DNA from: Streptomyces asoensis
Lineage (GTDB): Bacteria; Actinomycetota; Actinomycetes; Streptomycetales; Streptomycetaceae
NCBI RefSeq assembly: GCF_013085465.1
Contig: NZ_CP049838.1
Location: 2,232,001 to 2,296,000, forward strand
Length of the DNA: 64,000 nucleotides
Reading direction: 5' to 3'
Shown here: piece after piece, positions 26,423 to 47,011 of the stretch
Layout: every line of letters begins with the position of its first letter
How positions within the stretch are numbered: position 1 is the stretch's first letter
The notes under the pieces: generated by a model
Database searches by the model: none
Seen by the model: the letters and a program-made list of their open reading frames with translations, nothing else
Told to the model about the DNA's origin: nothing
Position numbers and translations under genes: made by a program

Positions 26423-26616
26423 GACGACCACCTCGCTTCACGACGAGCAGTTCATTCCGAACGGTTCGCTTCCGAATATCCGTAGCCGAACATATCGCGA
26501 GTCGTGAGGCGAGGCAATAGACGCGATGTAACGCGATCGAGTGAAGCATGCGAGGACGTGAGGACTTGGGCCCGCCCCGGACACGGCTGCGTGACGCGCA
26601 CGAAACAGCGCGTCCC

Positions 26617-26642
26617 TAATTTCTGTCGCCCGACAGGAATTA
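26617..26642. promoter_or_regulatory. Long dyad operator upstream of APC permease (copy 1)
   Basis: Left arm TAATTTCTGTCG (26617-26628), centre CC, right arm CGACAGGAATTA (26631-26642), with 11 of 12 positions complementary. The same dyad with the same 2-nt centre is at 37300-37325 in front of the guanidine operon. The site lies 32 bp before the permease start. Confidence 0.8.
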
Positions 26643-26673
26643 CGTTCCCTCTGGGCCCAAGGCAGGTTCCGCC

Positions 26674-28230
26674 GTGACGACAACAGCCCCTTCCGACGTA
26701 CGCCCCGACCCGCCGCACTCCCCCGGCGCGGACGACGGCTCCCTCGCCGAGTTCGGCTACCCCCAGGAGCTGCACCGCAGCCTGGGCCGGTACGCCTCGT
26801 TCGCCGCCGGGTTCTCCTTCATCTCCGTCCTGACGACCGTCTTCCAGTTCTTCGCCTTCGGGTACGCCTTCGGCGGCCCGGTCTTCTTCTGGGCCTGGCC
26901 GGTCGTGCTGGTCGGTCAGTTGCTGGTCGCCGCGTGCTTCGCGGAGCTGGCGGCGCGCTACCCGATCTCGGGCGCGATCTACCAGTGGTCGTCGCGGCTG
27001 TCGACGCCCTCGTTCGGCTGGTTCGCCGGCTGGATCATGGTGATCGGGCAGATCGTCGTGGTCGCCGCGGCCGCGCTGGCGCTCCAGATGGTGCTGCCGG
27101 CGATCTGGTCGGGCTTCCAGCTGATCGGCACCGACCCGGCACCCACCTCGCCGGACGGCGCGGCCAACGCCGCGCTGCTCGGCGTGCTCCTGCTGGCGCT
27201 GACCACGTTCGTGAACGTCGTCGACAACCGCGTGATGTCCGTGATCAACCGGGTCGGCGTGACCGCCGAGATCATCGGCGCGGTACTCATCGTCGTGCTG
27301 CTGCTCACCCACTCCGAGCGGACCCCGAGCATCACCTTCCACACCGAAGGGGCCGCGCAGAACGGCCTGTTCGGGGCGCTGCTCGTCGGATCGTTCACGG
27401 CCGCGTACGTGATGATCGGGTTCGACAGCGCGGGCGAGATGAGCGAGGAGACGCACCACCCGCGGCGCACCGCGCCCCGCACGATCCTCACCGCGCTCGG
27501 CGCGGCCGGCCTGCTCGGCGGGCTGATCGTGCTGGGCGGGCTGCTGGCCGCGCCCAGCCTCACCGACGGACGCCTCGGGGTCGACGGCCTCAGCTACGTC
27601 CTCACCAGCAGCCTCGGCGACGGGGTCGGCAAGGTGCTGCTGGCGGACGTGGTGGTCGCGATCGCGGTGGCCACGCTCGCCATCCAGACGGCGGCCTGCC
27701 GGATGCTGTTCTCCATGGCCCGCGACGGACAACTCCCGTTCTCCGGCCGCCTCGCGCGCGTGAACCCCCGTACCGGCATGCCGAGCGCCCCGGCGCTGGT
27801 GGTCGGCGTCCTCGCGGCGGCCCTGCTGCTGCTCAACTTCGCCTCACCGGACGCCTTCCTGGCCATCGGCACGACCTGCATCGTGATGCTGTACCTGGCG
27901 TACGCGATGGTCACCGGCCCGCTGCTGGTGCGTCGGCTGCGCGGACAGTTCTCCTCGGCCGGCACGGACGAGACGGGCGCCCGCCTGTTCTCCCTGGGCC
28001 GCTGGGGTGTCCCGGTGAACGCCCTCGCGCTCCTCTACGGCCTGCTGATGACGGTCAACCTGGCCTGGCCGCGCGCGGCGGTGTACGACCCGGCGGGCGG
28101 CCACTGGTACTTCCAGTGGTTCACCGTGCTGTTCCTCGGCGCGACACTCGCGGCCGGTGTGGCCTTCCGGGCCTACCGCAGGCGGTCGCCGGCACCGGCC
28201 ACGGCGGTACCGGAGACGGCGGCCGCGTAG
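26674..28230 (+). CDS. APC-family permease, probable member of the guanidine/urea regulon
   Basis: The 518-residue amino acid-polyamine-organocation transporter has 12 predicted helices. The family's opening FGYPQELHRSLGRYASFAAGFS is followed by ELAARYPISGAIYQW, and MIGFDSAGEMSEETHHPRR is the conserved loop. The closest named group by pattern is the permeases found beside urea carboxylase-associated genes. The GTG start follows a weak AAGG. The operator 32 bp upstream is nearly identical to that of the carboxylase operon at 37362-43996. Uptake of guanidine, urea or a related nitrogen compound is therefore an inference. A hairpin follows the gene. Confidence 0.88.
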   Translation: MTTTAPSDVRPDPPHSPGADDGSLAEFGYPQELHRSLGRYASFAAGFSFISVLTTVFQFFAFGYAFGGPVFFWAWPVVLVGQLLVAACFAELAARYPISGAIYQWSSRLSTPSFGWFAGWIMVIGQIVVVAAAALALQMVLPAIWSGFQLIGTDPAPTSPDGAANAALLGVLLLALTTFVNVVDNRVMSVINRVGVTAEIIGAVLIVVLLLTHSERTPSITFHTEGAAQNGLFGALLVGSFTAAYVMIGFDSAGEMSEETHHPRRTAPRTILTALGAAGLLGGLIVLGGLLAAPSLTDGRLGVDGLSYVLTSSLGDGVGKVLLADVVVAIAVATLAIQTAACRMLFSMARDGQLPFSGRLARVNPRTGMPSAPALVVGVLAAALLLLNFASPDAFLAIGTTCIVMLYLAYAMVTGPLLVRRLRGQFSSAGTDETGARLFSLGRWGVPVNALALLYGLLMTVNLAWPRAAVYDPAGGHWYFQWFTVLFLGATLAAGVAFRAYRRRSPAPATAVPETAAA

Positions 28231-28303
28231 ACCCGGCGGGCGCGTCGGGCCTGACCGTCAGACACACAGGACGGACGGGTGCGTCAGGCCGCCAAGCGTG
28301 TCG

Positions 28304-28336
28304 GACGGGCATGCGCGCGAAGCGGGCATGCCCGTC
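28304..28336 (+). terminator. Terminator hairpin after APC permease
   Basis: GACGGGCATGC (28304-28314) and GCATGCCCGTC (28326-28336) form a perfect 11-bp stem with an 11-nt loop, 74 bp beyond the permease stop. There is no U tract. Confidence 0.6.
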
Positions 28337-28465
28337 ACGCCAGCCGCCGGACACGGCCACGCGCAGGAGCTTGGCGAGCCGCCGCGCCGGACGGTTCGCC
28401 GCCGTCGGCCCGAGCGTTGCCGAGGCGTGCGACCTCCGGCTGTACTCGTCGGATCCTGCTTGACC

Positions 28466-28471
28466 TACGAT
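28466..28471 (+). promoter_or_regulatory. -10 element, possible leaderless start of hydrolase gene
   Basis: TACGAT ends 6 nt before GTG 28478. No ribosome-binding site is present. Confidence 0.3.
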
Positions 28472-28477
28472 GACGCG

Positions 28478-29155
28478 GTGAAGTTCGTGATGGTGCCGGG
28501 TGGCTGGCAAGGCGGATGGGTGTTCGACTCGGTGGCCGCCGAGCTGCACCGGGACGGTCACCACGTCGAGGCGGTGACCCTGTCGGGGTTGGAGTCGGAC
28601 GGCCCAGTCGATGTGGACCGTCCGCCGAACCTCGACACCCATATCGACCAGGTGGCCGAGATCATTGACCGTAGCGACGAAACGCCCCTCGCACTGTGCG
28701 GGCACAGCTACGGCGGGATGGTGATCGCCGGTGTCGCGGATCGGCTCAGCGACCGCATCGATCAGCTTGTCTTCATCGACGCCTACGTCCCGGACGACGG
28801 GGATTCGTGTTGGTCGTTGACCAGCGACAGCTTCCGGGAGTCGTTCATAGCCGGCGCCCGCGCCGACGGTCGATGGGTCGCAGTCCCTGATGGGCTCGAC
28901 CCTCGCGCGCGACCGCACCCGATGGCGAGCTTCGTCCAGTCGATCAGGCTGGGAGGCAACGCCAGCCGCGCGTTCGGCCGTACGTACATCAGTGGTGGAG
29001 CGTGGGCAGGCAGCCCGTTCGTGACCCTGACCGAACGGTTGCGCAACGACTCGGGCTGGCGGGTTCACGAGATTCCCGTCGGTCACAACATCGCCCGCCG
29101 CGACCCGCATGGCCTCACGGCCGTTCTCAGCGCCTTGCCGCCCGACTCCTCCTGA
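28478..29155 (+). CDS. Alpha/beta hydrolase (plant methylesterase-like)
   Basis: The 225-residue alpha/beta-fold hydrolase has an oxyanion loop VPGGWQGGW, nucleophile Ser77 in CGHSYGG, FIDAYVPDDGDS after strand 6 and His in VGHNIARRDP. The overall pattern resembles salicylate-type methylesterases and small esterases; the substrate is unknown. GTG 28478 is chosen as it begins the first strand (VKFVMVPGG); TTG 28460 is an alternative. Codon use here is less G/C-biased than in neighbouring genes, consistent with acquisition. The 247 bp before it hold a hairpin and no gene. Confidence 0.75.
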   Translation: MKFVMVPGGWQGGWVFDSVAAELHRDGHHVEAVTLSGLESDGPVDVDRPPNLDTHIDQVAEIIDRSDETPLALCGHSYGGMVIAGVADRLSDRIDQLVFIDAYVPDDGDSCWSLTSDSFRESFIAGARADGRWVAVPDGLDPRARPHPMASFVQSIRLGGNASRAFGRTYISGGAWAGSPFVTLTERLRNDSGWRVHEIPVGHNIARRDPHGLTAVLSALPPDSS

Positions 29156-29158
29156 CCC

Positions 29159-29974
29159 TCATCCGCTCACTTCTCCCAGATGAACACCCGGTTCACCACC
29201 TACCGGAACGACACCGCGCCAAGTCCTGCGATAGCCCTCGCGAAGAGGCCCGCCGACAAGGGCGAGGATCTGTGATGCGGCGTCGATCATGGGCGTCGGG
29301 TCTCCCGACGTGCACAGCCGCAGGTGTCCTTCGAGCAGGGCGGCCCCACGTTCCCCGTCCGCCTCCAGAAGGCGCCGCGGCAGCCACTTCCCGCCGCCGA
29401 TCCACGCCTGGTGGTAGTCGCAGAGCAGATCTGCCGCCGCAGTGAGAACGAACCCGGCCACCGCCAGACGCTCGATCCGGTCGCCGGCATCGGCGAGGTC
29501 GTCCAGAGCATTCGTCAGCCCATACCTCTTCGTCTCGACCACCTCCGGTGCCGCCGCCGGAGGACCATTGCGGAGGTCCGCCTCGGCACGGGCACGGGCG
29601 CGGCCGGCCTCCCCGGCGACATCGACCAGGACGAGACCCGTGGCGTACACGCTCTGGAGGACCGCACGACGTGCAGCGACGTCCGCAGCAAAGAGATCCG
29701 CGAGACCGGCACGGGTGTGGATGAAGAGCTCCACGACACGTCCCTCGAACCGGATCGTCTCCCGGCAGGTCTCGCCCTTGTCCCCGATGAGCACCGCGAT
29801 GTCCAGGTCACTGCTGGCAGTGGCTCGCCCCGCGGCCACCGACCCGCCGAGGACCGCGGCAAGCGCATCGGGGAAACGGTCACACACGAGGCGTCGGGCC
29901 TGGTCGATGGGGTCCGCGTTCACGGCAATCAGGGTTTCAGGAACCTTGATCGATGGCGACCAGGTTTCCGTCAC
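29159..29974 (-). CDS. Nucleotidyltransferase-domain protein
   Basis: The protein is about 271 residues with a pol-beta-type nucleotidyltransferase motif (LGGSVAAGRATASSDLDIAVLI), Gly-Ser followed by the two metal-binding Asp residues. A helical C-terminal half (LDDLADAGDRIERLAVAGFVL, DYHQAWIGGGKWLPRRLLEAD) resembles aminoglycoside or lincosamide nucleotidyltransferases and MNT-type enzymes. No HEPN toxin gene is adjacent. The start is uncertain; GTG 29974 is one of several in-frame codons between 29974 and 30013. It is convergent with the hydrolase gene 4 bp away. Its composition is slightly atypical for the chromosome. Confidence 0.75.
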   Translation of the reverse strand: MTETWSPSIKVPETLIAVNADPIDQARRLVCDRFPDALAAVLGGSVAAGRATASSDLDIAVLIGDKGETCRETIRFEGRVVELFIHTRAGLADLFAADVAARRAVLQSVYATGLVLVDVAGEAGRARARAEADLRNGPPAAAPEVVETKRYGLTNALDDLADAGDRIERLAVAGFVLTAAADLLCDYHQAWIGGGKWLPRRLLEADGERGAALLEGHLRLCTSGDPTPMIDAASQILALVGGPLREGYRRTWRGVVPVGGEPGVHLGEVSG

Positions 29975-30034
29975 CACGGCTTCACGGCTACGAACCGTGA
30001 CGGCCCCGAGCACGCGCCACTGGGTGCGCCTGGC

Positions 30035-30616
30035 TCAGTCGCCCTGTACGCGCGCGTGGAGATGCATGTCGTGCCAGCCGTCCTGATGGAGGGCGGCACT
30101 GCGCCTGGTGCCCTCCAGAAGGAAGCCGGCCTTGCCCGCGACCCGGCAGGAGGCCTCGTTGGCGGTGGCGTGCATCAGCTCCAGGCGGTGGAAGCCGATC
30201 TCGTCGAAGGCCCAGCGGGTGAGGGCGGTCGTGGCCCGGGGGGCGACTCCCCGGCCACGGGCCGCCCTGGTCGTCCAGTACGCGACCTCGGCCACGCCCT
30301 CGGCGAGCAGGATGCCCCGCAGCGCCACCCGCCCCAGCAGTTCGTCGCTGTCCGCGTCGACGACGGCCCACTGGGCGTTCCGCTCCTCCGCCCAGCTCGT
30401 ACGCCACTCCTCGATCCAGCCGGCGACCTCCTCCTCGGAGTCGGCGGCCCTGATGTGCCACTGGTGCATGGCGGGGTCCTGGAAGGCGGCGTACACGGCG
30501 GGGGCGTCCTCGGCCCGCCACGGGCGCAGGAGCAGTCCGTCGCCGCTGCGGAGCACGGGCTGCGGGGCCCCCGAGAGGGTTCCGGCGGGCAGGACGACGT
30601 CGGCGGTGAAGGGCAT
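30035..30616 (-). CDS. GNAT-family N-acetyltransferase (RimJ/RimL type)
   Basis: The 193-residue acetyltransferase_3 protein has LLLRPWRAEDAPAVYAAFQDPAM, WAVVDADSDELLGRVAL and AEVAYWTTRAARGRGVAPRATTALTRWAF (acetyl-CoA loop R/Q-x-x-G-x-G/A). FHRLELMHATANEASCRVAGKAGF completes the core. This is the RimJ/RimL-like pattern for protein N-terminal or small-molecule acetylation; the acceptor is unknown. ATG 30616 begins MPFTADVVLPAG. It is divergent from the pseudouridine synthase gene. Confidence 0.88.
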   Translation of the reverse strand: MPFTADVVLPAGTLSGAPQPVLRSGDGLLLRPWRAEDAPAVYAAFQDPAMHQWHIRAADSEEEVAGWIEEWRTSWAEERNAQWAVVDADSDELLGRVALRGILLAEGVAEVAYWTTRAARGRGVAPRATTALTRWAFDEIGFHRLELMHATANEASCRVAGKAGFLLEGTRRSAALHQDGWHDMHLHARVQGD

Positions 30617-30668
30617 GAGCCGCATCCTGCCAACGGTCCACGGCCCGACCAACGGGTTTTCCGGCCCG

Positions 30669-30674
30669 TAGGCT
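30669..30674 (+). promoter_or_regulatory. -10 element, leaderless start of pseudouridine synthase
   Basis: TAGGCT ends 8 nt before ATG 30683, with no ribosome-binding site in between. Confidence 0.4.
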
Positions 30675-30682
30675 TGACCCCG

Positions 30683-31654
30683 ATGAGACGCCGTACGCCG
30701 CCCCCGCCCTCCCCGCTGCCGCAGCGCGACGGGATCGACCCGGTACGGGTCCGGTTGCCCGGCGAGGGCGCCTGGGCCACCGTGCGGGAGCACCTGGTGG
30801 AGCGGCTGGGCCCGGCGCGCGCCGGGGTCGCGGAAGGGATGCTGGAGGCCGGGCTCGTCGTCGGCGCCGACGGGCGGGCGGTGGCGCCGGACGCGGCCTA
30901 CGTACCGGGGATGTTCGTCTGGTACCACCGCGAGCTGCCGCCCGAGGTGCCCGTGCCGTTCCCGCTGGAGATCGTGCACTGCGACGAGCACATCGTCGTC
31001 GTCGACAAGCCGCACTTCCTGGCCACCACCCCGCGCGGCAGCCATGTCACCGAGAGCGCGCTGGCCCGGCTGCGGCGGGAGCTGGACATCCCCGCGCTCG
31101 GCGCCGCGCACCGGCTCGACCGGCTCACCGCCGGGCTCGTGCTGTTCACCGTGCGCCCCGAGGAGCGCGGCGCGTACCAGTCGCTCTTCCGCGACCGCCG
31201 GGTGCGCAAGGTGTACGAGGCCGTCGCGCCGTACGACCCGGAGCTCGCCCTGCCCCGGACCGTGCGCAGCCGGATCGTCAAGGAGCGCGGGGTCCTGGCC
31301 GCCTACGAGGTGGCGGGCGAGCCGAATGCCGTGAGCCGCGTCGAGCTCGTCGAGCACGGTGCGCGAGGACTCGGCCGGTACCGGCTGCTGCCCGCCACCG
31401 GGCAGACCCATCAGCTGCGTGTCCATATGAACACGCTCGGCGTGCCCATCCTCGGCGATCCGCTCTACCCCGAGGTGGCCGCCCCCGTGCCGGCCGGTGA
31501 CTTCCGGCGCCCGCTTCAGCTGCTGGCGCGGGAGCTGGAGTTCACCGATCCGGTCACGGGGACGGAGCACCGGCTGCGGAGCGGTCGGGTGCTCGAGGCC
31601 TGGACGTCGTACGACGGCTGGGCCGCCGCTCCGTCGGCGGGCGCCGCTCAGTAA
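30683..31654 (+). CDS. RluA-family RNA pseudouridine synthase
   Basis: The 323-residue enzyme converts uridine to pseudouridine in rRNA or tRNA. The catalytic Asp146 lies in AHRLDRLTAGLVLF. IVHCDEHIVVVDKPHFLATTPRG before it and TGQTHQLRVHMNTLGVPILGDPLYP after it complete the RluA core. An S4-like N-terminal region (ATVREHLVERLG) is present in degenerate form. The target site cannot be read from the sequence. It overlaps the convergent P450 gene by 7 bp. Confidence 0.9.
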   Translation: MRRRTPPPPSPLPQRDGIDPVRVRLPGEGAWATVREHLVERLGPARAGVAEGMLEAGLVVGADGRAVAPDAAYVPGMFVWYHRELPPEVPVPFPLEIVHCDEHIVVVDKPHFLATTPRGSHVTESALARLRRELDIPALGAAHRLDRLTAGLVLFTVRPEERGAYQSLFRDRRVRKVYEAVAPYDPELALPRTVRSRIVKERGVLAAYEVAGEPNAVSRVELVEHGARGLGRYRLLPATGQTHQLRVHMNTLGVPILGDPLYPEVAAPVPAGDFRRPLQLLARELEFTDPVTGTEHRLRSGRVLEAWTSYDGWAAAPSAGAAQ

Positions 31655-33162
31655 CCGCGCCACCAGGACAGGAAGCGCCGCCAGGCGTTGGGCCTGCGGA
31701 CCGGCCCCGTCGACTGCGGGACGGGCGGCGCGGAGTGCGGCGCGGAGTGCGGCGCGGGCGCCGGGGCGGGCGCCGGCTCGGGGGCAGGCGCCGGCGCCGG
31801 CGCAGGCCGCGGCTGGGTGCTCACCGGCCGCGTCAGACGCTGCGGCGGGATCGGGGCGTGGCTCGGCTTGTGCTTGACGTCCTGCTGGTCCTTCGGCTCG
31901 AACCGGACCGGCAGCTCCACCAGGTGCCGCGAGGCGATCGACATCGTCCACCGCAACTCGTCCTCTTCGCAGTCGAGTTGCACGTCCGGCAGCCGCATCA
32001 GCAGCGCGTCGACGCCGACGTCGGCGATGGCGCGGCCGATGTCCTGGCCTGGGCACTCGTGCGGACCGCTGCCGAAGGCGAGGTGGGAGCGGTTGCCCTG
32101 CATGTGGGCGGACAGGTCGGGGCGTACCCGGGGATCCACGTTGCCGGGCGCGGGCGCGAAGAAGAGACCGTCGCCCCGGCGGATGCGCTGGCCCCCCAAC
32201 TCCGTGTCCTGCTTCGCGAAGTAGCCGAAGATGGTGCTGAACGGGGGCTCGTCCCACAGGGACTGCTCGACCGCCTCCGCCACCGTCATCTGGCCGCCGT
32301 TGAGCTGGGCGAGGAAACGCGGGTCGGTGAGGACCATGCGCAGCGCGTTGGAGAGCAGGTTGACGGTGGCCTCGTAGGCGGCGAAGAGCACCAGGCGCAG
32401 ATGCTCCCTGACCTCGTCGTCGGTGAGACCCGCCGGGTGGCCGATGAGGTGGCTGGTGAAGTCGTCCTCGGGGTTGGCCCGGCGGCGGGTGGTGAGCCGG
32501 GCGAGCGCCTGCACGACGTACTCGTGGCTGGCGAGCGCGGTCTCGCTGCCCTTGAGCGCGTCACGGGCGGAGTGCACCATCTTGTCGTTGTACTCGTCGG
32601 GCATGCCGAGGACATGGCACATCACGGCCATCGGCAGGTGCTCGGCGAAGTCGCCGACCAGGTCGGCCCGACCCTCCTCGCAGAAGCGGTTGACCAGGCG
32701 CTGGCTGGAGCGGTTGATGTAGCGGCGCACACTGCGGTCGTCGATGGTGGCCATGGCGGCGGTGACCGCGCCGCGCAGCCGCTTGTGCTCGTCGCCCTCG
32801 GCGTGGGCGCAGATGGGCTGCCAGGCCATGTGCGGCATGAGCGGGTGGTCGGGCCTGACCTTGCCGTCCAGCATCTGCGACCAGATGCGGCTGTCCTTGG
32901 TGAACTGCGACGGGGTGCGCACCATGCGCAGGTTCTCGGCGTGCCCGAGGACCATCCACATCGGCAGGTCGTCGTGGAGCAGGACCGGCGCCACGGGGCC
33001 GTGTTCCTCGCGCAGCCGCTCGTACAGTTCGTTCAGGTCCTCCGCGCCGGGGCCGTAGAGGCGGGCCAGTCCGCCGGGGCCCCGGCCGTGCGCGGGGCAA
33101 CCGGGCGGCGGGTCCAGGGCGAGGTCGTGCGGACCGGTCGGGGTGGGGTGTTCGGGAGTCAC
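31648..33162 (-). CDS. Conservon-associated cytochrome P450 lacking ExxR (rarE-like)
   Basis: The 504-residue P450 is the last gene of the conservon. The haem-binding loop FGSGPHECPG gives thiolate Cys370. The I-helix is A261-A-Y-E-A-T266. The K-helix position that should read ExxR is EQSLW (299-303), so the Arg is absent, as described for the CYP157 family. After about residue 424 comes a tail of Pro-Ala repeats ending RRFLSWWRGY, unusual for P450s and possibly a membrane or protein contact. Whether it is a monooxygenase is open. In S. griseus the equivalent rar operon represses aerial development. GTG 33162 has GGAGC 8 nt upstream. Confidence 0.92.
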   Translation of the reverse strand: MTPEHPTPTGPHDLALDPPPGCPAHGRGPGGLARLYGPGAEDLNELYERLREEHGPVAPVLLHDDLPMWMVLGHAENLRMVRTPSQFTKDSRIWSQMLDGKVRPDHPLMPHMAWQPICAHAEGDEHKRLRGAVTAAMATIDDRSVRRYINRSSQRLVNRFCEEGRADLVGDFAEHLPMAVMCHVLGMPDEYNDKMVHSARDALKGSETALASHEYVVQALARLTTRRRANPEDDFTSHLIGHPAGLTDDEVREHLRLVLFAAYEATVNLLSNALRMVLTDPRFLAQLNGGQMTVAEAVEQSLWDEPPFSTIFGYFAKQDTELGGQRIRRGDGLFFAPAPGNVDPRVRPDLSAHMQGNRSHLAFGSGPHECPGQDIGRAIADVGVDALLMRLPDVQLDCEEDELRWTMSIASRHLVELPVRFEPKDQQDVKHKPSHAPIPPQRLTRPVSTQPRPAPAPAPAPEPAPAPAPAPHSAPHSAPPVPQSTGPVRRPNAWRRFLSWWRGY

Positions 33163-33223
33163 AGGGGGTCGCTCCGAAACTGTGCTGAATACGGTGTCTT
33201 CAGGGGATGTGGTGCCGTGCGGG

Positions 33224-33844
33224 TCAGGCGAGACTGCGGGTCAGAGCCAGGGAGTGCAGGAAGCGCATGAGGGTCATCAGGACGTCGCGGCTGGAGGCGC
33301 GGCGGCGGACGTCGCACTCCACGATCGGGATCTCGGGCGGCAGGTCGAGGGCCGCGCGCAGGTCGTCGATGGGGTAACGGGGCCCGTCGGGGAAGGTGTT
33401 GACGGCGACGACGAAGGGCACGCCGCCCTCCTCGAGCCGGCCCATGACCTCGAAGCTGACCTCGAGGCGGCGGGTGTCGACCAGGACGACCGCGCCCAGC
33501 GCGCCCTCGAACAGTCCGTTCCACAGGAACCAGAAGCGTTCCTGGCCGGGCGTGCCGAAGAGGTAGAGCACGACCTGTTCGGTGATGCGGATCCGGCCGA
33601 AGTCCATGGCCACGGTGGTGGCGGTCTTGGTCTCGGAGCCGTAGTTGTCGTCGACCCCGATGCCCGCCTGGGTCATGGTCTCCTCGGTGGTCAGCGGCCT
33701 GATCTCGCTGACGGAGCCGACCATGGTGGTCTTGCCGACGCCGAAGCCGCCCACGATGACGATCTTCGCCGCGGCCGTGGTGGTGTGCGGCAGATGGTCC
33801 TCGGCCCGTGGGCCGGGGATCGTGTCAGAGCCGTTGAAGTCCAT
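33224..33844 (-). CDS. Conservon Ras-like GTPase (CvnD/RarD type)
   Basis: The 206-residue cytoplasmic GTPase has the P-loop GGFGVGKTT (32-40), an MDFGRI strand with Asp81 and G3 GTPGQ (97-101). In place of the NKxD base-recognition motif it has VNTF (148-151), as usual in conservon (MglA-like) GTPases. It is thought to form a membrane-proximal heterocomplex with the histidine kinase, roadblock and DUF742 partners encoded upstream. It overlaps the DUF742 gene by 20 bp; a 61-bp gap leads to the P450 gene. Confidence 0.93.
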   Translation of the reverse strand: MDFNGSDTIPGPRAEDHLPHTTTAAAKIVIVGGFGVGKTTMVGSVSEIRPLTTEETMTQAGIGVDDNYGSETKTATTVAMDFGRIRITEQVVLYLFGTPGQERFWFLWNGLFEGALGAVVLVDTRRLEVSFEVMGRLEEGGVPFVVAVNTFPDGPRYPIDDLRAALDLPPEIPIVECDVRRRASSRDVLMTLMRFLHSLALTRSLA

Positions 33845-34256
33845 GCATCACCGCTTCGAGAAGGGAACGGTCGGGGAGCTGCTGCCGGACGATGGGGGCG
33901 CGTGCCTGTACGAGTTCGGCCGCCAGCATCTCGGTGAGCAGCACCGTCACCACGCTGAACGGCAGGCTGAGGTAGGCAGAGATCTCGGCCACCGACAGCG
34001 GGGCGGCGCACATCCGCAGCACCGCCGTCTGCTCCGGGGTGGCCGACGAGGGCGGTTCGGCACGCGCCACGACTAACGTGACCAGGTCGACGGGTGCGCG
34101 CTCGCCGTCCGCGCCCGTGATGATGTACAGCCGCTCGGGGTTCTTGCCCTCCCCCTCCGCCCCCTCCTTCGAGTCCGACGGGAGCGGCAGGGGCGGCAGG
34201 GGCGGCGGGGGCGGTTGTGGCAGGGGTTGTCGCCGACGGCGTTGCGGAGGAGTCAT
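33825..34256 (-). CDS. Conservon DUF742 protein (CvnC/RarC type)
   Basis: A 143-residue protein. A Pro-rich N-terminus of about 25 residues is followed by the DUF742 winged-helix-like domain (ERLYIITGADGERAP, LSVAEISAYLSLPFSVVTVLLTEM). The C-terminal DRSLLEAVMHGLQRL is typical. It probably bridges the roadblock and GTPase proteins. ATG 34256 overlaps the roadblock stop by 4 nt. The gene is in the middle of a tightly overlapping operon. Confidence 0.92.
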   Translation of the reverse strand: MTPPQRRRRQPLPQPPPPPLPPLPLPSDSKEGAEGEGKNPERLYIITGADGERAPVDLVTLVVARAEPPSSATPEQTAVLRMCAAPLSVAEISAYLSLPFSVVTVLLTEMLAAELVQARAPIVRQQLPDRSLLEAVMHGLQRL

Positions 34257-36285: not shown

Positions 36286-36564
36286 GTGGGCACCCTCTGT
36301 AGGGATCTGTCGGCATCTTCGGGAAGTTTGGGAACAAGCGCACGAATACGCCTCAACTCGGTGCGCCGCGGGCGAGCTTAGTCCGACCGGATCATCGCCG
36401 TGTCATATTCCGCAACCGCCTGAAACCACTTCCGTACGTGGAGTAGCCTCAGCCCATTTACACGCACGGCATTCGTTCGAACACGATGCGTGACGCCGGA
36501 CGGGCGTGCGAAACAGTTCACCGGGACGGATGAGACGAGCACCCGCGAGCGGCTCGGGCGGTGT

Positions 36565-37191
36565 TCAGTTCCCCGCGATACGCAGCGCCGCGTCGGCGGT
36601 GGCGCGGGCGAACTCCGAGACCGAGCGGTCGGGATCCGAGCGGTGCACGAGGATGACACCCTCGATGAGCCCGAAGACCAGGTCGGTGCGGAGATCCAGC
36701 GCGCTCTTCGCGAGCGCGCCGCCCGCCGCCGTGGTGGCGATCAACTGACGGTAGGCGTCCTTGAGTTCGGCGCGCACGGCATGGAAGCCGGCGAACCGCT
36801 CGGTGCGCACCTCGGGCAGCAGATAGAGGCCGCCGAGGTTGTGCGAGCCGCCGCACAGCAGCTCGACGTCGGTTCGGCACAGCTCCCAGAGCCGGGCCTC
36901 GGCCGTCCGCGCGTCGTCCGCGAGCAGCTCACGGGCATAGGTCAGCGAGGGCGTGACCGTCGACTCCAACAGCGCGGCGAGCAGCTCCTCCTTGCCGGAG
37001 ACGTAGTGGTACATGGAGGCCTGGCGCATGCCCGCGCGTTCGGCGACGGCCCGGGTCGTGGTGGCGGCGTAGCCGCGCGTGGTGAACAACTCCGCGGCGG
37101 CCACGAGCAGTTCGGCGCGCGGGGCGAGCCCGCTGTCCGGGCGCTGCGCGGCCCGCGGGCGGCCCACTCGACGTCCGCTGCTCGTCCCCAT
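36565..37191 (-). CDS. TetR-family regulator, probable repressor of guanidine operon
   Basis: The 208-residue TetR protein has a basic N-terminal arm, an HTH (AELLVAAAELFTTRGYAATTTRAVAERAGMRQASMYHYVSGKEELL, read in pieces) and a helical ligand domain with a C-terminal DLVFGLIEGVILVHRSDPDRSV. It is divergent from the DUF1989-carboxylase operon; the 170-bp space contains a near-perfect dyad (37300-37325). That site recurs before the APC permease at 26674. It is thus the obvious candidate to sense guanidine, carboxyguanidine or allophanate and to control both units. Confidence 0.88.
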   Translation of the reverse strand: MGTSSGRRVGRPRAAQRPDSGLAPRAELLVAAAELFTTRGYAATTTRAVAERAGMRQASMYHYVSGKEELLAALLESTVTPSLTYARELLADDARTAEARLWELCRTDVELLCGGSHNLGGLYLLPEVRTERFAGFHAVRAELKDAYRQLIATTAAGGALAKSALDLRTDLVFGLIEGVILVHRSDPDRSVSEFARATADAALRIAGN

Positions 37192-37299
37192 GCGTTCGAT
37201 CCTCGCACACGGCCCCGGACGGCGATCTTCGGACGACCCGGTGAGGAGTCGGTAACCGCCCCGCAACCGGCGGGCAACGGCGGCGACCCGCCCCGGACC

Positions 37300-37325
37300 T
37301 AATTTCTGTCGGGCGACAGAAATAC
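37300..37325. promoter_or_regulatory. Long dyad operator upstream of guanidine operon (copy 2)
   Basis: The dyad core is ATTTCTGTCG, centre GG, CGACAGAAAT, with perfect 10-bp arms, between tetR and the DUF1989 gene. It matches copy 1 at 26617-26642 in all but a few outer bases and the centre. It lies 36 bp before the DUF1989 start codon. Confidence 0.85.
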
Positions 37326-37361
37326 CGCGACAGCGACGGAACCGAGCTGCGGAGGTCCGCA

Positions 37362-38189
37362 ATGGCGGCGACAGCGACCACATACGGAGCACGCGCCCAC
37401 GCCCGGGCGCAGGAGGGCGCCCGCGCCGAGGCCATGCCGGTCGTCCCGGCCCGGGACTGGCAGGACCCGCCCTGCGAGGCCGGCCACCTGGTGTGGGCCG
37501 AGACGGTCGCGGGCGGCAACTACACCCACCGGGTCCTCGCGCGCGGCACCGAGCTGCGCCTGACCGACCTGCACGGCGACGCCTGCGCCCATCTGCTCCT
37601 TCACGTGGACGGCCGGCCCTGGGAGCGGCTGAACGTCGCCGACACGGTCAAGGTCCAGTGGAACGCCTACCTCGGCGAGGGCGTGCTGCTCCTGTCCGAC
37701 CAGGGCCGCGTCCTCGCCTCGGTCGTCGCCGACACCGCCGGGCGGCACGACGCCCTGTGCGGCACCTCCACCCTCGTACGCAACACCGAGCGCTACGGCG
37801 ACGGCAGCCCGCAGTCCGCCTCCCCGGCCGGCCGGGAGCTGTTCAAGCTGGCCGCCGCGAAGAACGGCCTGGAGCCCCGCGACCTGCCGCCCTCGCTCTC
37901 CTTCTTCCAGGGGGTGGAGGTCCGGGACGACGGCACGCTCGACTTCACCGGCTCGGCGGGCCCCGGCGGCAGCGTCACCCTGCGCGCCGAACAGGACGTG
38001 ACGGTCCTGATCGCCAACGTGCCGCACCCGGCCGACCCCCGGCCCGGGTACGTCAGCACCCCGCTGGAGGTCCTCGCCTGGCGGGCGGCGGCCACCCGGC
38101 CGGGCGACCCGCTGTGGGACGCCACGCCCGAGGGCCGCCGCGCCTTCCTCAACACCGCCGAATTCCTCACCGCGAGGGGGCTCGCATGA
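37362..38189 (+). CDS. DUF1989 carboxyguanidine deiminase subunit (cysteine-poor partner)
   Basis: This 275-residue DUF1989 protein was formerly called urea carboxylase-associated protein. In the CgdAB system two DUF1989 subunits together deiminate carboxyguanidine to allophanate. Visible family motifs are TDLHGDACAHLLL, GRHDALCGTS-TLVRNTERYG and a C-terminal ANVPHPADPRPG. At the three positions where the partner protein (38186) has Cys, this one has Ser, Val and Arg. It may therefore be the structural half of a heteromer. GGAGG lies 6 nt before the ATG. It is the first gene of a four-gene operon, overlapping the next by 4 nt. Confidence 0.88.
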   Translation: MAATATTYGARAHARAQEGARAEAMPVVPARDWQDPPCEAGHLVWAETVAGGNYTHRVLARGTELRLTDLHGDACAHLLLHVDGRPWERLNVADTVKVQWNAYLGEGVLLLSDQGRVLASVVADTAGRHDALCGTSTLVRNTERYGDGSPQSASPAGRELFKLAAAKNGLEPRDLPPSLSFFQGVEVRDDGTLDFTGSAGPGGSVTLRAEQDVTVLIANVPHPADPRPGYVSTPLEVLAWRAAATRPGDPLWDATPEGRRAFLNTAEFLTARGLA

Positions 38190-38794
38190 GCACGGACACA
38201 GAGGTGGCGGCCCGCGCCTCCTGGTCGTCGATCGTCCGCGAGGGCGAGACGCTGACCATCACCGACCTGCACGGCAACCAGGCCGTCGACTTCCTCGTGT
38301 ACGACGCCCACGACACGTCCGTGCGCTACAGCGCGCCCGACACGATCCACGCCCAGGGCGGCATCTTCCTCACCACCGGCAGTGTGCTGATGTCCAACGA
38401 GCACACCCCGCTGATGACGGTGACCGCCGACGGCGTGGGCCGCCACGACACCGTAGGCGGCGCCTGCTCCAAGGAGTCCAACACCCTGCGCTACGGCCAC
38501 CACACCTACGCGCAGCACGCGTGTGTGGACAACTTCCTCGCCGAGGGCGCCCGGCACGGCCTCGGCAAGCGGGACCTGGTCTCCAACATCAACTGGTACA
38601 TGAACGTGCCCGTCGAGAAGGACGGCACCCTCGGCATCGTCGACGGACTCTCCGCGCCGGGCCTCTCGCTCACGCTGCGCGCCGAGCGGGACGTCCTCGT
38701 GCTGGTCTCCAACTGCCCCCAGATCAACAACCCCTGCAACGGCTTCGAGCCGACGGCGGTGCGGATGACCATCGACGAGGCGGGCGCGGCATGA
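38186..38794 (+). CDS. DUF1989 carboxyguanidine deiminase subunit (cysteine-bearing)
   Basis: The 202-residue DUF1989 protein has TDLHGNQAVDFLVYD, GRHDTVGGACSKESNTLRYG, NINWYMNVPVEKDG and SNCPQINNPCNG. Cys94, Cys177 and Cys184 sit where a metal site would be expected, and all three are missing from the partner subunit. In guanidine-assimilating bacteria such a pair removes ammonia from carboxyguanidine to give allophanate. The start and stop codons overlap both neighbours (ATGA), so equal amounts should be made. Confidence 0.9.
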   Translation: MSTDTEVAARASWSSIVREGETLTITDLHGNQAVDFLVYDAHDTSVRYSAPDTIHAQGGIFLTTGSVLMSNEHTPLMTVTADGVGRHDTVGGACSKESNTLRYGHHTYAQHACVDNFLAEGARHGLGKRDLVSNINWYMNVPVEKDGTLGIVDGLSAPGLSLTLRAERDVLVLVSNCPQINNPCNGFEPTAVRMTIDEAGAA

Positions 38795-41700
38795 CCTTCG
38801 ACAAGCTGCTGGTCGCCAACCGCGGCGAGATAGCCGTCCGCGTCATCCGCACCGCCCGCGAACTGGGCCTGCGCACGGTCGCGGTGTACTCCGACCCCGA
38901 CCGGTCGGCACCCCACGTCCGGCTCGCCGACGAGGCCGTACGGCTCGGCCCGGCCCCCGCGAAGGAGTCGTACCTCGACGCCGACCTGGTCCTGGGCGCC
39001 GCCAAGGACACCGGCGCCGGCGCGATCCACCCGGGCTACGGCTTCCTCTCCGAGGACGCGGCCTTCGCGCGCCGCTGCGCCGACGCGGGGATCGTCTTCG
39101 TCGGTCCGACACCCGAGCAGCTGGAGCTGTTCGGCGCCAAGCACACCGCTCGGGCGGCGGCGGAGGCGGCGGGGGTGCCGCTGGCCCCCGGCACCGGGCT
39201 CCTGGCGGACCTGCCCGAGGCGCTGGAGCAGGCCCGGCTCATCGGCTATCCGGTCATGCTCAAGGCCACCGGCGGTGGCGGCGGGATCGGCATGTCGGCC
39301 TGTGGCTCGGCCGCCGAACTGACCGACGCCTGGGAGCGCGTCCAGCGTGTCGCCGCCGCGTCCTTCTCCTCCGCCGGCGTCTTCCTGGAACGGCTCGTGG
39401 AGCGCGCCCGCCATGTCGAGGTGCAGGTCTTCGGCGACGGCGCGGGAAAGGTCGTCGTCCTCGGCGACCGGGACTGCTCCCTCCAGCGCCGCAACCAGAA
39501 GGTCGTGGAAGAGGCCCCGGCCCCCGGCCTTCCCTCGGGCATACGGGAGCAACTGGCGTCGAACGCACGTGACTTGTGCGCCTCGGTCGGCTACCGATCC
39601 GCGGGCACCGTCGAGTTCGTCTACGACGCGGCCCGCGAGGAGGCCTACTTCCTGGAGGTCAACACCCGCCTCCAGGTGGAGCATCCGGTCACCGAGGAGA
39701 TCTACGGCGTCGACCTGGTCGCCTGGATGCTGCGCCTGGCGCGCGGTGAACAGGACGTCGTACGCGATCCGGGCGCGCCCCGCGGCCACGCCGTCGAGGC
39801 ACGCCTCTACGCGGAGGACCCCAGCCGCGACCACCGGCCCGGCGCCGGCCTGCTGACGCGGGTCGAGTTCCCGGCCGGGGTGCGCGTCGACGGCTGGGTG
39901 GAGACAGGCACCGAGGTGACGACGTCGTACGACCCGATGCTCGCGAAGGTGATCGCGTACGGCTCGGACCGGGCGCACGCGCTGCGACGCCTGGACGAGG
40001 CACTGGCCCGGACCCGCGTCGACGGCATCGAGACGAACCTCGGGCTGGTCCGGGCGGCGCTGTCCGACTCCCGGTTCGTGACGGCGGCCCACTCGACGGC
40101 AACCCTCGCCACGGTCACCGACCCGACCCCCCGCGTCGAGGTCGTCTCCGGCGGCACCCTCACCACCGTGCAGGACTGGCCCGGCCGCACCGGCCACTGG
40201 CAGGTCGGCGTCCCGCCGTCCGGCCCGATGGACGACCGCTCGTTCCGCCTCGGCAACCGGGCGCTCGGCAACCCCGAGGGCGCCCCGGGCCTGGAGTGCA
40301 CCCTCCAGGGCCCGGCCCTGCGCTTCACCCACGCCACCACGGTGTGTGTGACGGGCGCGCCGGCCCCGGTCACCGTGGACGGCACGGCGGTGGCGCGGTG
40401 GGAGCCGGTGACCGTGCCGGCCGGGGCCCTGCTGGAGATCGGCGCGCCCAGCGAGCACGGCCTGCGGACGTACGTCCTGTTCGCGGGCGGCCTGGACGTC
40501 CCCGCCTTCCTGGGCAGCGCGAGCACGTTCACGCTGGGCCGGTTCGGCGGCCACGGCGGGCGGGCGCTGCGCACGGGTGACGTCCTGCACGGCGGGACGG
40601 TCGCCGACGGCACCGCGGTGCCCGTCCCGGACCGCCCGGAGTTCGCCCGGGTCTGGCACCTCGGCGCGGTCGAAGGCCCGCACGCGGCACCGGAGTTCTT
40701 CACCGAGGACGACATCCGCGACTTCTACGCCGCCGACTGGAAGGTCCACTTCAACTCGGCCCGCACCGGTGTGCGCCTGGTCGGGCCCAAACCGCGCTGG
40801 GCACGCACCGACGGCGGCGAGGCAGGTCTGCACCCGTCCAACATCCACGACACCCCCTATTCCGTCGGCGCCGTCGACTACACCGGCGACATGCCGGTGC
40901 TGCTCGGCCCGGACGGCCCGTCCCTCGGCGGGTTCGTGTGCCCGGCGACGGTGATCAGCTCGGAGCGCTGGAAGCTGGGCCAGCTGCGCCCGGGCGACAC
41001 GGTCCGCTTCACGCCGGTGGGCGTCGACGGCGCGCCGCGCCCCGAGATCGTCGACGGGGGCGTGCTGGCCCGGGACGGCGACGTGACCTACCGGCGCAGC
41101 GGCGACGACAACCTGCTGGTCGAGTTCGGACCGCTCCAGCTGGACCTGGCGCTGCGCATGCGGGTCCACGCGCTGATGGAGGCGGTGGCCGCGGCGGACC
41201 TGGCCGGCGTCACCGATCTCACCCCCGGCATCCGCTCCCTCCAGATCCGGACGGACCCCGGCCGCCTCCCCCAGCATGAACTCCTCGCGGTGGTCCGGGA
41301 GATGACGGCCGCCCTCCCGCCCTCGGACGAACTGGTCGTCCCCTCCCGCACCGTGCACCTCCCGCTGTCCTGGGACGACCCCGCGACCCGCGAGGCCATC
41401 GCCCGCTACATGGCGGGCGTCCGCGACGACGCCCCCTGGTGCCCCTGGAACATCGAGTTCATCCGCCGGGTCAACGGACTGGACACGCTGGCGGACGTCT
41501 ACGACACGGTGTTCGCCGCGGAGTACCTGGTCCTGGGCCTCGGAGACGTCTACCTGGGCGCCCCGGTCGCCACCCCGCTCGACCCGCGCCACCGTCTGGT
41601 GACGACGAAGTACAACCCCGCGCGCACCTGGACGGCCGAGAACTCGGTGGGCATCGGCGGCGCGTACCTCTGCGTCTACGGCATGGAGGGCCCCGGCGGC

Positions 41701-42303
41701 TACCAGTTCGTGGGCCGGACGACCCAGGTCTGGTCGCCCTGGCAGCAGCGCGGCGCGTTCGAAGCGGGCTCGCCCTGGCTGCTGCGCTTCTTCGACCGGA
41801 TCCGCTGGTACCCGGTCGACGCGGACGAACTCCTCGACCTACGGGCCGACATCATCTCGGGTCGCTTCGTGCCGCGCATCGAGGAGGGCACCTTCTCGCT
41901 CGCCGAGTACCAGACCTTCCTCGCCGAACACGCCGGCCCCATAGCGGAGTTCAGGTCCCTCCAGCAGACCGCGTTCGCGGCGGAGCGGGACGCCTGGGAG
42001 GCGGCCGGCGAGTTCGCGCGGGCAGCGGCCGCCGAGGCGCCGGCCGCTCCCCCGGCCGAGGTGGCGATACCGCCGGGCGGCCGCCTGGTCGAGGCCGAGT
42101 TCGCCGCCTCCGTCTGGCAGTTGAACGTGTCGCCGGGCGACCAGGTGACGACGGGGCAGCCGCTGCTCGCCCTGGAGGCGATGAAGATGGAGTCCAGGGT
42201 GCACGCGCCGGTCGACGGCGTGGTGGCACAGGTCCTGGCCCGACCCGGCGACCAGGTCGAGGCGGGGACGGCACTGCTCGTCCTGGCCCCGGTCGCGAGC
42301 TGA
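38791..42303 (+). CDS. Biotin-dependent urea/guanidine carboxylase
   Basis: The 1170-residue multidomain enzyme starts with biotin carboxylase (1-450: LLVANRGEIAVRVIRTA, KATGGGGGIGMS, EVNTRLQVEHPVTE). A KipA-like AHS2 domain (about 455-750: VQDWPGRTGHWQVGVPPSGPMD) and a KipI-like AHS1 domain (about 770-1000) form the carboxyltransferase. The biotin carrier ends the protein, with Lys1132 in EAMKMES. Sequence alone does not settle urea versus guanidine as substrate. The two DUF1989 genes in the same operon favour guanidine, since urea would not need a deiminase. It overlaps the upstream gene by 4 nt. Confidence 0.93.
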   Translation: MTFDKLLVANRGEIAVRVIRTARELGLRTVAVYSDPDRSAPHVRLADEAVRLGPAPAKESYLDADLVLGAAKDTGAGAIHPGYGFLSEDAAFARRCADAGIVFVGPTPEQLELFGAKHTARAAAEAAGVPLAPGTGLLADLPEALEQARLIGYPVMLKATGGGGGIGMSACGSAAELTDAWERVQRVAAASFSSAGVFLERLVERARHVEVQVFGDGAGKVVVLGDRDCSLQRRNQKVVEEAPAPGLPSGIREQLASNARDLCASVGYRSAGTVEFVYDAAREEAYFLEVNTRLQVEHPVTEEIYGVDLVAWMLRLARGEQDVVRDPGAPRGHAVEARLYAEDPSRDHRPGAGLLTRVEFPAGVRVDGWVETGTEVTTSYDPMLAKVIAYGSDRAHALRRLDEALARTRVDGIETNLGLVRAALSDSRFVTAAHSTATLATVTDPTPRVEVVSGGTLTTVQDWPGRTGHWQVGVPPSGPMDDRSFRLGNRALGNPEGAPGLECTLQGPALRFTHATTVCVTGAPAPVTVDGTAVARWEPVTVPAGALLEIGAPSEHGLRTYVLFAGGLDVPAFLGSASTFTLGRFGGHGGRALRTGDVLHGGTVADGTAVPVPDRPEFARVWHLGAVEGPHAAPEFFTEDDIRDFYAADWKVHFNSARTGVRLVGPKPRWARTDGGEAGLHPSNIHDTPYSVGAVDYTGDMPVLLGPDGPSLGGFVCPATVISSERWKLGQLRPGDTVRFTPVGVDGAPRPEIVDGGVLARDGDVTYRRSGDDNLLVEFGPLQLDLALRMRVHALMEAVAAADLAGVTDLTPGIRSLQIRTDPGRLPQHELLAVVREMTAALPPSDELVVPSRTVHLPLSWDDPATREAIARYMAGVRDDAPWCPWNIEFIRRVNGLDTLADVYDTVFAAEYLVLGLGDVYLGAPVATPLDPRHRLVTTKYNPARTWTAENSVGIGGAYLCVYGMEGPGGYQFVGRTTQVWSPWQQRGAFEAGSPWLLRFFDRIRWYPVDADELLDLRADIISGRFVPRIEEGTFSLAEYQTFLAEHAGPIAEFRSLQQTAFAAERDAWEAAGEFARAAAAEAPAAPPAEVAIPPGGRLVEAEFAASVWQLNVSPGDQVTTGQPLLALEAMKMESRVHAPVDGVVAQVLARPGDQVEAGTALLVLAPVAS

Positions 42304-42340
42304 CCGAGCCGATCGACCCGACACCACGCAAGGAGCACGC

Positions 42341-43996
42341 ATGTCCACGACTGTGTCCCGCGTCCGCGCCGCCTACGCCCGCATCGAGGCCACGGACCGC
42401 CCGGAGATCTGGATCGACCTTCGGCCGCGGGCGGACGTCGAGGCGGAGGCCCGCACGCTCGACGAACGGCTGGCGTGCGGCGAGCGCCTTCCGCTCGCCG
42501 GCCGGCTGCTCGCCGTCAAGGGAAACATCGACGTGGCCGGACTGCCCACCACCGCGGGCTGCCCGGCGTACGCCTACCGGCCCGCCGACGACGCCCCGGT
42601 CGTCGCCCGGCTCCGTGCGGCCGGCGCGCTGGTACTGGGCACCACGAACCTGGACCAGTTCGCGACCGGCCTGGTGGGCACCCGCTCCCCGCACGGCGCG
42701 GTGCGGGGCGCCGTCGACCCGTCGCGGGTGAGCGGCGGCTCCAGCTCCGGTTCGGCCGTCGCGGTGGCTCTCGGCATCGTCGACCTCGCCCTGGGCACGG
42801 ACACGGCGGGTTCGGGGCGGGTCCCGGCCGCCTTCAACGGCATCGTCGGCCTCAAGCCCACCCGCGGACTGGTCCCCACGGAGGGCGTCGTCCCGGCCTG
42901 CGCCTCGATCGACTGTGTGACGGTGTTCGCCCGCACGCTCCCCGAGGCGGAGCGGGCCCTGGCCCACATGGCGTCGCCGGCCGGCCGCGCCCTCCCCTCG
43001 CTCCCCGCCCGCGACCCCGGCCCCTGGCGGATCGCGGTCCCGCCCCTCGACCAGCTGGGCGAGCTGGACCAGGGCTGGGCGGCGGCCTACGAGGCAGCGG
43101 CACGACGGCTCGAGGCGGCCGGGGCCGAGATCCGCAGCATCGACCTCACCCCGTTCACCGAGGCCGCCGCGATGCTCTACGAGGGCGCGTTCGTCGCCGA
43201 GCGCTACACCGCCGTGGGTACATTTGTCGACAAGTTGATCGCAGAGGGCGGTGAGGGGCTGGACCCGACGGTCGCCGGCATCATCACCCGGGCCCGGGAC
43301 ATCCCGGCCCACCGGCTCTACACGGACACCGAACGCCTGACGGCCCTGCGCACCCGCGCCCTGGCCGAACTGGCCGACTCGGACGCCCTGTTGCTGCCCA
43401 CCACCCCCGGCCACCCCACCCTCGCCGAGGTCGCCGCCGACCCGCTGGGCGCCAACGCCCGCCTGGGCCGCTTCACCAACTCCACCAACCTCTTCGACCT
43501 GGCGGCGGCGGCCGTCCCGGCCGGCGAGGTGAACGGCCTGCCCTTCGGCGTGATGCTGGTCGGCCCGGCCTTCACGGACGACCGGCTGGCCCGGATCGCG
43601 GACCTGCTGCGACCCGAGGTGTACGTGGCGGTGGCGGGCGCCCATCTGACCGGCCAGCCCCTCAACCCCCAGCTGCTGTCCCTGGGCGCGGTGCTGGACC
43701 GGACGACCACGACGTCCCCGGTCTACCGCCTGCACGCCCTCCGCACGGCCCCGCCCAAGCCGGGTCTCGTGCGGGTGGGCGAGGGCGGCGCCGCGATCGA
43801 GGTGGAGATCTGGCGCCTCCCGGCGGAGGGTCTCGGCAACCTGCTCGCCGCTCTCCCCCGCCCGATGGCCCTGGGCAGCGTCGAACTCGCCGACGGCACC
43901 CAGGTCCCCGGCTTCCTGTGCGAACCGGGCGCCCTCGGCGACGCGGCGGACATCACGGCGTACGGGGGCTGGCGGGCGTATCTCGACCAGCGCTGA
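42341..43996 (+). CDS. atzF: Allophanate hydrolase
   Basis: The 551-residue enzyme splits allophanate into two ammonia and two CO2. The amidase-signature triad is Lys60 (AVKGNID), Ser134 (SGGSSSGSA) and Ser158 (DTAGSGR), with spacing identical to AtzF (74 and 24 residues). The C-terminal AtzF domain (about 440-551) has LRVGEGGAAIEVEIWRLP-type sequence and VPGFLCEP. It completes the pathway carboxyguanidine, allophanate, ammonia started by the upstream genes. It begins 38 bp after the carboxylase with AAGGAG upstream. It is the last gene of the operon. Confidence 0.95.
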   Translation: MSTTVSRVRAAYARIEATDRPEIWIDLRPRADVEAEARTLDERLACGERLPLAGRLLAVKGNIDVAGLPTTAGCPAYAYRPADDAPVVARLRAAGALVLGTTNLDQFATGLVGTRSPHGAVRGAVDPSRVSGGSSSGSAVAVALGIVDLALGTDTAGSGRVPAAFNGIVGLKPTRGLVPTEGVVPACASIDCVTVFARTLPEAERALAHMASPAGRALPSLPARDPGPWRIAVPPLDQLGELDQGWAAAYEAAARRLEAAGAEIRSIDLTPFTEAAAMLYEGAFVAERYTAVGTFVDKLIAEGGEGLDPTVAGIITRARDIPAHRLYTDTERLTALRTRALAELADSDALLLPTTPGHPTLAEVAADPLGANARLGRFTNSTNLFDLAAAAVPAGEVNGLPFGVMLVGPAFTDDRLARIADLLRPEVYVAVAGAHLTGQPLNPQLLSLGAVLDRTTTTSPVYRLHALRTAPPKPGLVRVGEGGAAIEVEIWRLPAEGLGNLLAALPRPMALGSVELADGTQVPGFLCEPGALGDAADITAYGGWRAYLDQR

Positions 43997-46903: not shown

Positions 46904-47011
46904 CGTGCTTTCGAGCGTACCGGGCCGCACTGACAACAGGACGATCATTATCCGGATCCGGTCTTGCCAAACCTCGGTACGCCCAGCTCACGGGCGCACG
47001 GGCGGCCCGTT

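Follow-up and report, generated by a model that had tools for sequence, protein, structure and literature searches.

Genes and predicted operator sites of the locus

The 64,000-nt stretch of the Streptomyces asoensis genome considered here (contig NZ_CP049838.1, positions 2,232,001 to 2,296,000; hereafter the window) contains a gene for an APC permease and a four-gene operon encoding two DUF1989 proteins, a biotin-dependent carboxylase, and an allophanate hydrolase, with a gene for a TetR-family regulator divergent from the operon (Table 1). The permease gene and the operon are each preceded by a copy of one inverted repeat (dyad), the copies lying 10.7 kb apart, and upstream of each dyad stands a sequence of the type bound by the nitrogen regulator GlnR. 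This gene content had been listed in a first-pass annotation made from the sequence alone, and it stands with two refinements: the "biotin carboxylase" of that annotation is a full-length urea/guanidine carboxylase, and the TetR gene occupies the minus-strand interval given in the table.

Table 1. Genes and predicted regulatory sites of the guanidine-type locus, in window coordinates
Feature	Position	Strand	Basis
GlnR-type box GTGAC-N6-GAAAC, upstream of permease dyad	26591..26606	+	exact KTNAC-N6-GMAAC match
AmtR-type operator before permease	26617..26642	.	core CTGTC-N4-GACAG at 26623-26636; first six bases TAATTT
APC permease, urea-carboxylase-system type	26674..28230	+	TIGR03428, 655 bits, below the 740 cut-off
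TetR-family regulator, AmtR-like, divergent from operon	36565..37191	-	PF00440 (TetR_N); 5e57 AmtR match; synteny with S. avermitilis sav6701 (PMC4222082)
GlnR-type half-sites GTAAC-N6-GCAAC-N6-GCAAC, upstream of operon dyad	37252..37278	+	exact box 37252-37267
AmtR-type operator before operon	37300..37325	.	core at 37306-37319; first six bases TAATTT
DUF1989 protein UAAP1, CgdA/CgdB-type subunit	37362..38189	+	TIGR03425, 310 bits, above cut-off; PF09347
DUF1989 protein UAAP2, CgdA/CgdB-type subunit	38186..38794	+	TIGR03424, 327 bits, above cut-off; PF09347
Biotin-dependent carboxylase, guanidine type (D696, D919), full-length, 1170 aa	38791..42303	+	TIGR02712, 1826 bits; alignment to 5i8i/3va7
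Allophanate hydrolase	42341..43996	+	TIGR02713, 698 bits, above cut-off; PF21986 C-terminal domain

The dyads read TAATTTCTGTCG-CC-CGACAGGAATTA before the permease gene and TAATTTCTGTCG-GG-CGACAGAAATAC before the operon, and both contain the exact core CTGTC-N4-GACAG. They are real sites, found with their shared core where the first-pass annotation had placed them. A search of all 10,044,300 bases of the genome with a 23-base dyad pattern, allowing up to three mismatches, returned two sites, both inside the window, and none with the reversed control; a less stringent pattern, the core with degenerate flanks, likewise returned only the two window dyads from the whole genome when no mismatch was allowed. 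Chance is excluded as their origin because they are conserved across Streptomyces genomes, as described below. An RNA element in place of a protein site was considered and rejected, as the two-base centre leaves no loop and, by reading, deviations in the arms of dyad copies (such as ...CTGTCA with CGACAGG...) are uncompensated. The motif CTGTC-N4-GACAG was reportedly assigned to AmtR by Petridis in 2016, in J Mol Biol.

Among solved structures, the TetR protein best matches 5e57, "Transcription regulator AmtR" (E 2.7e-36), followed by 5dxz, 5dy1, and 5dy0 ("TetR family") and by 5mqq and 6gy3 ("AmtR protein"), with all others at 8e-13 or worse; judged by these matches, it is AmtR-like. Structures 5mqq and 6gy3 are presumably those of the Corynebacterium glutamicum AmtR. 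As early as 2013, amtR was reported to co-occur with a permease, two unknown frames, a carboxylase, and an amidase in ten actinobacteria (PMC4222082). The same paper describes in S. avermitilis (sav6697-sav6709) the layout of the window, with amtR divergent and the permease gene elsewhere, and in Mycobacterium smegmatis an operon (msmeg_2184-2189) that shares with the present one an AmtR-type TetR, a permease, two unknown frames, a carboxylase, an amidase, and probably a need for GlnR. Purified M. smegmatis AmtR binds the msmeg_2184 promoter even though its gene is unlinked there, deletion of amtR leads to higher operon transcripts, and nitrogen control of the operon is lost in a glnR mutant (PMC4222082). 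The regulator, its target operon, and the dual control are thus known from M. smegmatis, as the guanidine enzymes are from other bacteria. Both published systems were read as urea metabolism, before CgdAB had been described (PMC4222082), and it is in the guanidine-type residues, CgdAB, and operator conservation seen here that the S. asoensis system departs from that account. The AmtR of C. glutamicum belongs by sequence to the same TetR subfamily, yet it is released by PII and has over 30 nitrogen genes under its control (PMC4617892), as against two exact sites here.

Carboxylase type and operator conservation

Aspartates at positions 1330 and 1584 of the K. lactis enzyme are required, the first being the discriminator between guanidine and urea carboxylases (PMC11410670), and alignment to 5i8i and 3va7 shows that they correspond to D696 and D919 of the window carboxylase. 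With these residues stand two PF09347 proteins, each above its own family cut-off (UAAP1 or UAAP2), and together residues and DUF1989 pair support guanidine, the substrate proposed in the first-pass annotation, over urea. The APC permease is likely a guanidine importer. In what follows, loci with aspartate at the position of K. lactis 1330 are termed D-type (guanidine type), and N-type denotes the urea type.

The dyad pattern was found in 37 of 150 Streptomyces genomes, one of which (G075) was dropped as a chance match, its site being lone, with three mismatches and no query genes in the surrounding 4.1 kb that were fetched. Each of the remaining 36 genomes, and no other of the 150, has a carboxylase with 79% or more identity to that of the window (in G001, G140, and G141 the match comes in two pieces). 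Among them, cgdA lies directly downstream of a dyad in 35, the exception (G139) having its operon on a separate short contig, and the TetR gene is present and divergent from cgdA in 35. A dyad precedes a transporter gene in 34 (all except G001 and G044). The transporter is an APC permease in 33 of these; the exception is G097, where a sodium:solute symporter (SSF) replaces the permease with the operator retained. In G033 the permease dyad overlaps the predicted gene start. The two dyads are only 2.4-2.7 kb apart in G028, G034, G041, G052, and G065, in the order dyad-permease-TetR(reversed)-dyad-operon. The single regulon claimed at the outset, in which a transporter gene and a catabolic operon share an operator and an adjacent TetR-type repressor, is supported. 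At locus L112 (10923-12671), the sodium:solute symporter gene carries the dyad in the APC permease's place, and at two loci (L127 in G014 and L129 in G144) the permease gene is preceded by an additional, weaker dyad, 20 bp away from the first.

A second operon type occurs in five Streptomyces genomes (G003, G007, G020, G063, and G111), with a carboxylase 65-67% identical and with all genes in one direction, in the order permease, CgdA, CgdB, carboxylase, hydrolase, TetR. In all five the TetR, encoded behind the carboxylase, is 38-43% identical and retains RQAS in its recognition helix, and the stretch fetched holds one CTGTC-N4-GACAG core, before the permease gene, with flanks ATACC/TTACC...GGTAT.

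Beyond the genus, 38 of 345 genomes proved to encode the carboxylase in a search across the class, and 20 loci were fetched (the other 18 comprise five already covered, four more from Streptomyces, one cut by a contig end in G185, and eight others). Fourteen of the 20 are D-type; CgdA and CgdB accompany all 14, a TetR lies in 13 of the 14 stretches, and the exact core is present in 11, with near-copies seen by eye at L245, L251, and L258. Among the six N-type loci, neither CgdA, CgdB, TetR, nor core was found, and the sole N-type locus of the genus set (G069) has none of them either. A further, named-genome set consists of the best 80 among the 587 loci returned when GTDB was scanned once with an alignment of CgdB; nearly all are from Mycobacteriaceae and Nocardiaceae, and M. 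smegmatis itself is absent from them. Of the 79 loci at which position 1330 could be read, 78 have aspartate there, and 73 of the 80 stretches encode an AmtR-like TetR. Within the region starting 300 bp upstream of cgdA or the permease gene, 66 loci have the core when up to one mismatch is tolerated, and 27 have it exactly. As a control, 29 permuted half-sites matched at most seven of the 80 loci each (mean 1.1), none exactly. The D-type loci of M. houstonense (L329) and Mycobacterium sp. NS-7484 (L325) have no TetR nearby and a near-core before the permease gene, an arrangement resembling the published M. smegmatis layout. A symporter was matched instead of the APC permease at eight of the 80 loci (L294, L313, L316, L318, L326, L339, L342, and L345). 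Another, L310 (BBEG01000207.1), is titled Rhodococcus and carries the tree label Chroococcidiopsidaceae, Cyanobacteriota, so that a mislabelled or mixed assembly is likely.

AmtR and the CTGTC-N4-GACAG box accordingly accompany guanidine-type and not urea-type carboxylases, an association that is new here, and because they do so the AmtR "urea" regulon is probably a guanidine regulon. A regulon that serves urea, as in the M. smegmatis papers, would agree with the names that family models and papers give to these genes (urea carboxylase, urea amidolyase), but it is improbable in view of the guanidine-type residue D696, the presence of CgdA/CgdB-type proteins, the lack of CgdAB, TetR, or core at every N-type locus of the class (0/6) and genus (0/1) sets, and the binding of M. 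smegmatis AmtR, on which urea and amino acids at 0.5-5 mM were without influence (PMC4222082).

The dyad might also be read by some DNA-binding protein other than the neighbouring TetR. Such a reader would suit genome G323, where the dyad is retained and the TetR (74%) is encoded more than 1 Mb away, as well as the orphan TetR genes without a dyad described in the next section. To this explanation we give hardly any credence, since TetR and core co-occur in many families, also where the flanks have diverged, and since M. smegmatis AmtR binds the matching promoter from an unlinked gene (PMC4222082).

GlnR-type boxes and the proposed regulation

The GlnR box is tabulated as t/gTAAC-n6-Gc/aAAC and gTnAC-n6-GaAAC (PMC10704036). 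Exact matches to KTNAC-N6-GMAAC occur in the window only at the two places listed in Table 1, against a chance mean of 0.48. Across Streptomyces, 27 of 35 operon upstreams contain the motif, its end invariably 33 bp from the dyad; of 32 permease upstreams, 22 contain it, at a distance of 11 bp in 20 and of 31 bp in two. The expectation from shuffled upstreams is 0.03, and by reading the 18 upstreams that miss the motif are each off by one base. At all 35 operon sites and at 28 of the 34 permease sites, the base preceding the dyad completes the hexamer TAATTT, whose conservation suggests a possible -10 element, one that would lie under the bound repressor.

We hold with high confidence a model in which guanidine import and degradation are governed by two promoters, both repressed by AmtR and activated by GlnR. 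In this model the TetR protein is an AmtR, which as a dimer would bind both CTGTC-N4-GACAG dyads, overlapping the likely -10 region, and so repress the importer gene as well as the operon of cgdAB, carboxylase, and hydrolase; at the boxes just upstream, GlnR would activate both promoters when nitrogen is scarce. The gene products would then import guanidine, carboxylate it, deiminate the resulting carboxyguanidine, and hydrolyse allophanate, yielding ammonia and CO2, and S. asoensis would be expected to use guanidine.

Several points weigh against this model. Binding and repression were shown for the AmtR of M. smegmatis, and binding by the S. asoensis protein is putative. A consensus sigma-70 promoter scan found none at the permease gene, and the looser dyad pattern, at up to one mismatch, gave seven genome sites against six in the control; with no excess, a wide operator regulon in this genome was rejected. 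In the named-genome set, seven D-type loci have a TetR where the core was not found, TetR and core are both missing from four (some of them on short contigs), and the N-type locus of Nocardia tenerifensis (L331) nevertheless has CgdA and TetR, the core not being found. Ten of the 150 Streptomyces genomes (L094-L103), moreover, keep the TetR (best copy 64-77% identical) without carboxylase operon or operator. The Nocardia locus may represent a reversion of substrate specificity.

In nine of these ten genomes the orphan TetR gene adjoins a helicase gene whose product is 83-87% identical to that of the helicase gene at 44090-46948, which adjoins the guanidine operon of the window, and the orphans therefore occupy the same chromosomal place as the regulator here. 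A tree of 85 TetRs, weakly resolved in its inner part, places them among operon-linked proteins. Given this position and this descent, these genomes have probably lost the operon and kept the regulator. No core was found in the surroundings fetched, and a hidden target of the orphan regulator was considered and rejected, since in the ten operon-less genomes forward matches and control matches were equal in number, at 22 each. Genome G062 encodes, besides an intact TetR, a second copy (G062:C87:137947-138549) that is 48% identical and has an in-frame TAG.

The favoured candidate for what would release AmtR from these operators, put forward tentatively, is guanidine or an intermediate of its degradation, and it is possible, on a similarly guarded estimate, that AmtR is in most actinomycetes a dedicated repressor of guanidine assimilation with guanidine or an intermediate (carboxyguanidine, allophanate) as its effector. 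There is about an even chance that guanidine is not sensed at these promoters at all and that AmtR is either released by adenylylated PII (GlnK) or acts as an effectorless competitor of GlnR. The C. glutamicum AmtR is indeed released by PII (PMC4617892), competition between AmtR and GlnR in M. smegmatis is cited (PMC10704036), and the AmtR of that species was not released by urea or amino acids (PMC4222082). The AmtR box, however, tracks the guanidine-type operon and not general nitrogen genes, with only two exact sites in the genome; nitrogen status is already reported by GlnR; and guanidine is absent from the effectors listed as tried on AmtR in PMC4222082.

Guanidine riboswitches and the scope of the proposed regulon

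In other bacteria, guanidine carboxylase operons are controlled by riboswitches (PMC12186494), and these RNA-controlled operons encode the same enzymes, guanidine carboxylase, carboxyguanidine deiminase, and allophanate hydrolase (PMC12186494, PMC12508155), as the operon that here has AmtR-type and GlnR-type DNA sites. Rfam models at gathering scores detect no guanidine riboswitch in the window, as the first-pass annotation had noted, nor in 35 further loci (30 D-type and five N-type), the 35 other Streptomyces dyad loci not having been scanned individually. Guanidine-I was found in none of the 150 Streptomyces genomes, and guanidine-III in 124. In S. asoensis, a guanidine-III riboswitch (G000:C1:4048871-4048938, minus strand; L179) lies 1.78 Mb from the window before a gene for a small multidrug resistance (SMR) protein of 109 aa, whose SugE score, 124.4 bits, falls below the cut-off of 126. 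Where SMR proteins are controlled by guanidine riboswitches, they serve to export guanidine (PMC12186494). With a riboswitch before the SMR gene and none at the operon, export therefore appears to be riboswitch-controlled, and import and catabolism to have AmtR- and GlnR-type sites.

The first-pass annotation had proposed that the TetR replaced a guanidine riboswitch which formerly controlled the operon, a history that would account for an operon without the riboswitch by which its counterparts elsewhere are governed (PMC12186494). This is very unlikely: operons of this kind are associated with an AmtR-like TetR across actinomycetes, scans of this locus and of 30 other guanidine-type actinomycete loci detected no guanidine riboswitch, and the distribution of the two classes in Streptomyces has guanidine-I absent and guanidine-III kept, here before the SMR exporter gene. 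The regulon and its substrate, as first read, are thus supported and the replacement is not, and that reading had missed both the AmtR identity, published in 2013 (PMC4222082), and the GlnR boxes.

What is added here is a specific set of candidate ligands for a published repressor and its target, together with the comparative pattern, in which the AmtR box goes with the guanidine-type residue and is absent from the urea-type loci examined, with one mixed case; in an open-licence library, AmtR or GlnR was not found joined with guanidine carboxylase or carboxyguanidine among the matches listed. Work on AmtR and GlnR in "urea metabolism" may need rereading as work on guanidine assimilation. Should guanidine or an intermediate prove to be the effector, AmtR would become the first known example of a transcription factor that senses guanidine metabolism, and one cell would read guanidine twice, through a riboswitch for export and through GlnR-gated AmtR for import and catabolism.

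Guanidine-III is also followed by genes of other families, namely an Ohr-family peroxiredoxin gene at L190 (G054, by NCBIfam) and L191 (G074, near-identical by reading) and a gene for a metallo-beta-lactamase-fold hydrolase at L187 (G016). A further RNA of the window, the Streptomyces sRNA Scr1601 (RF02830), matches positions 1751-1974 on the minus strand at 166.6 bits.

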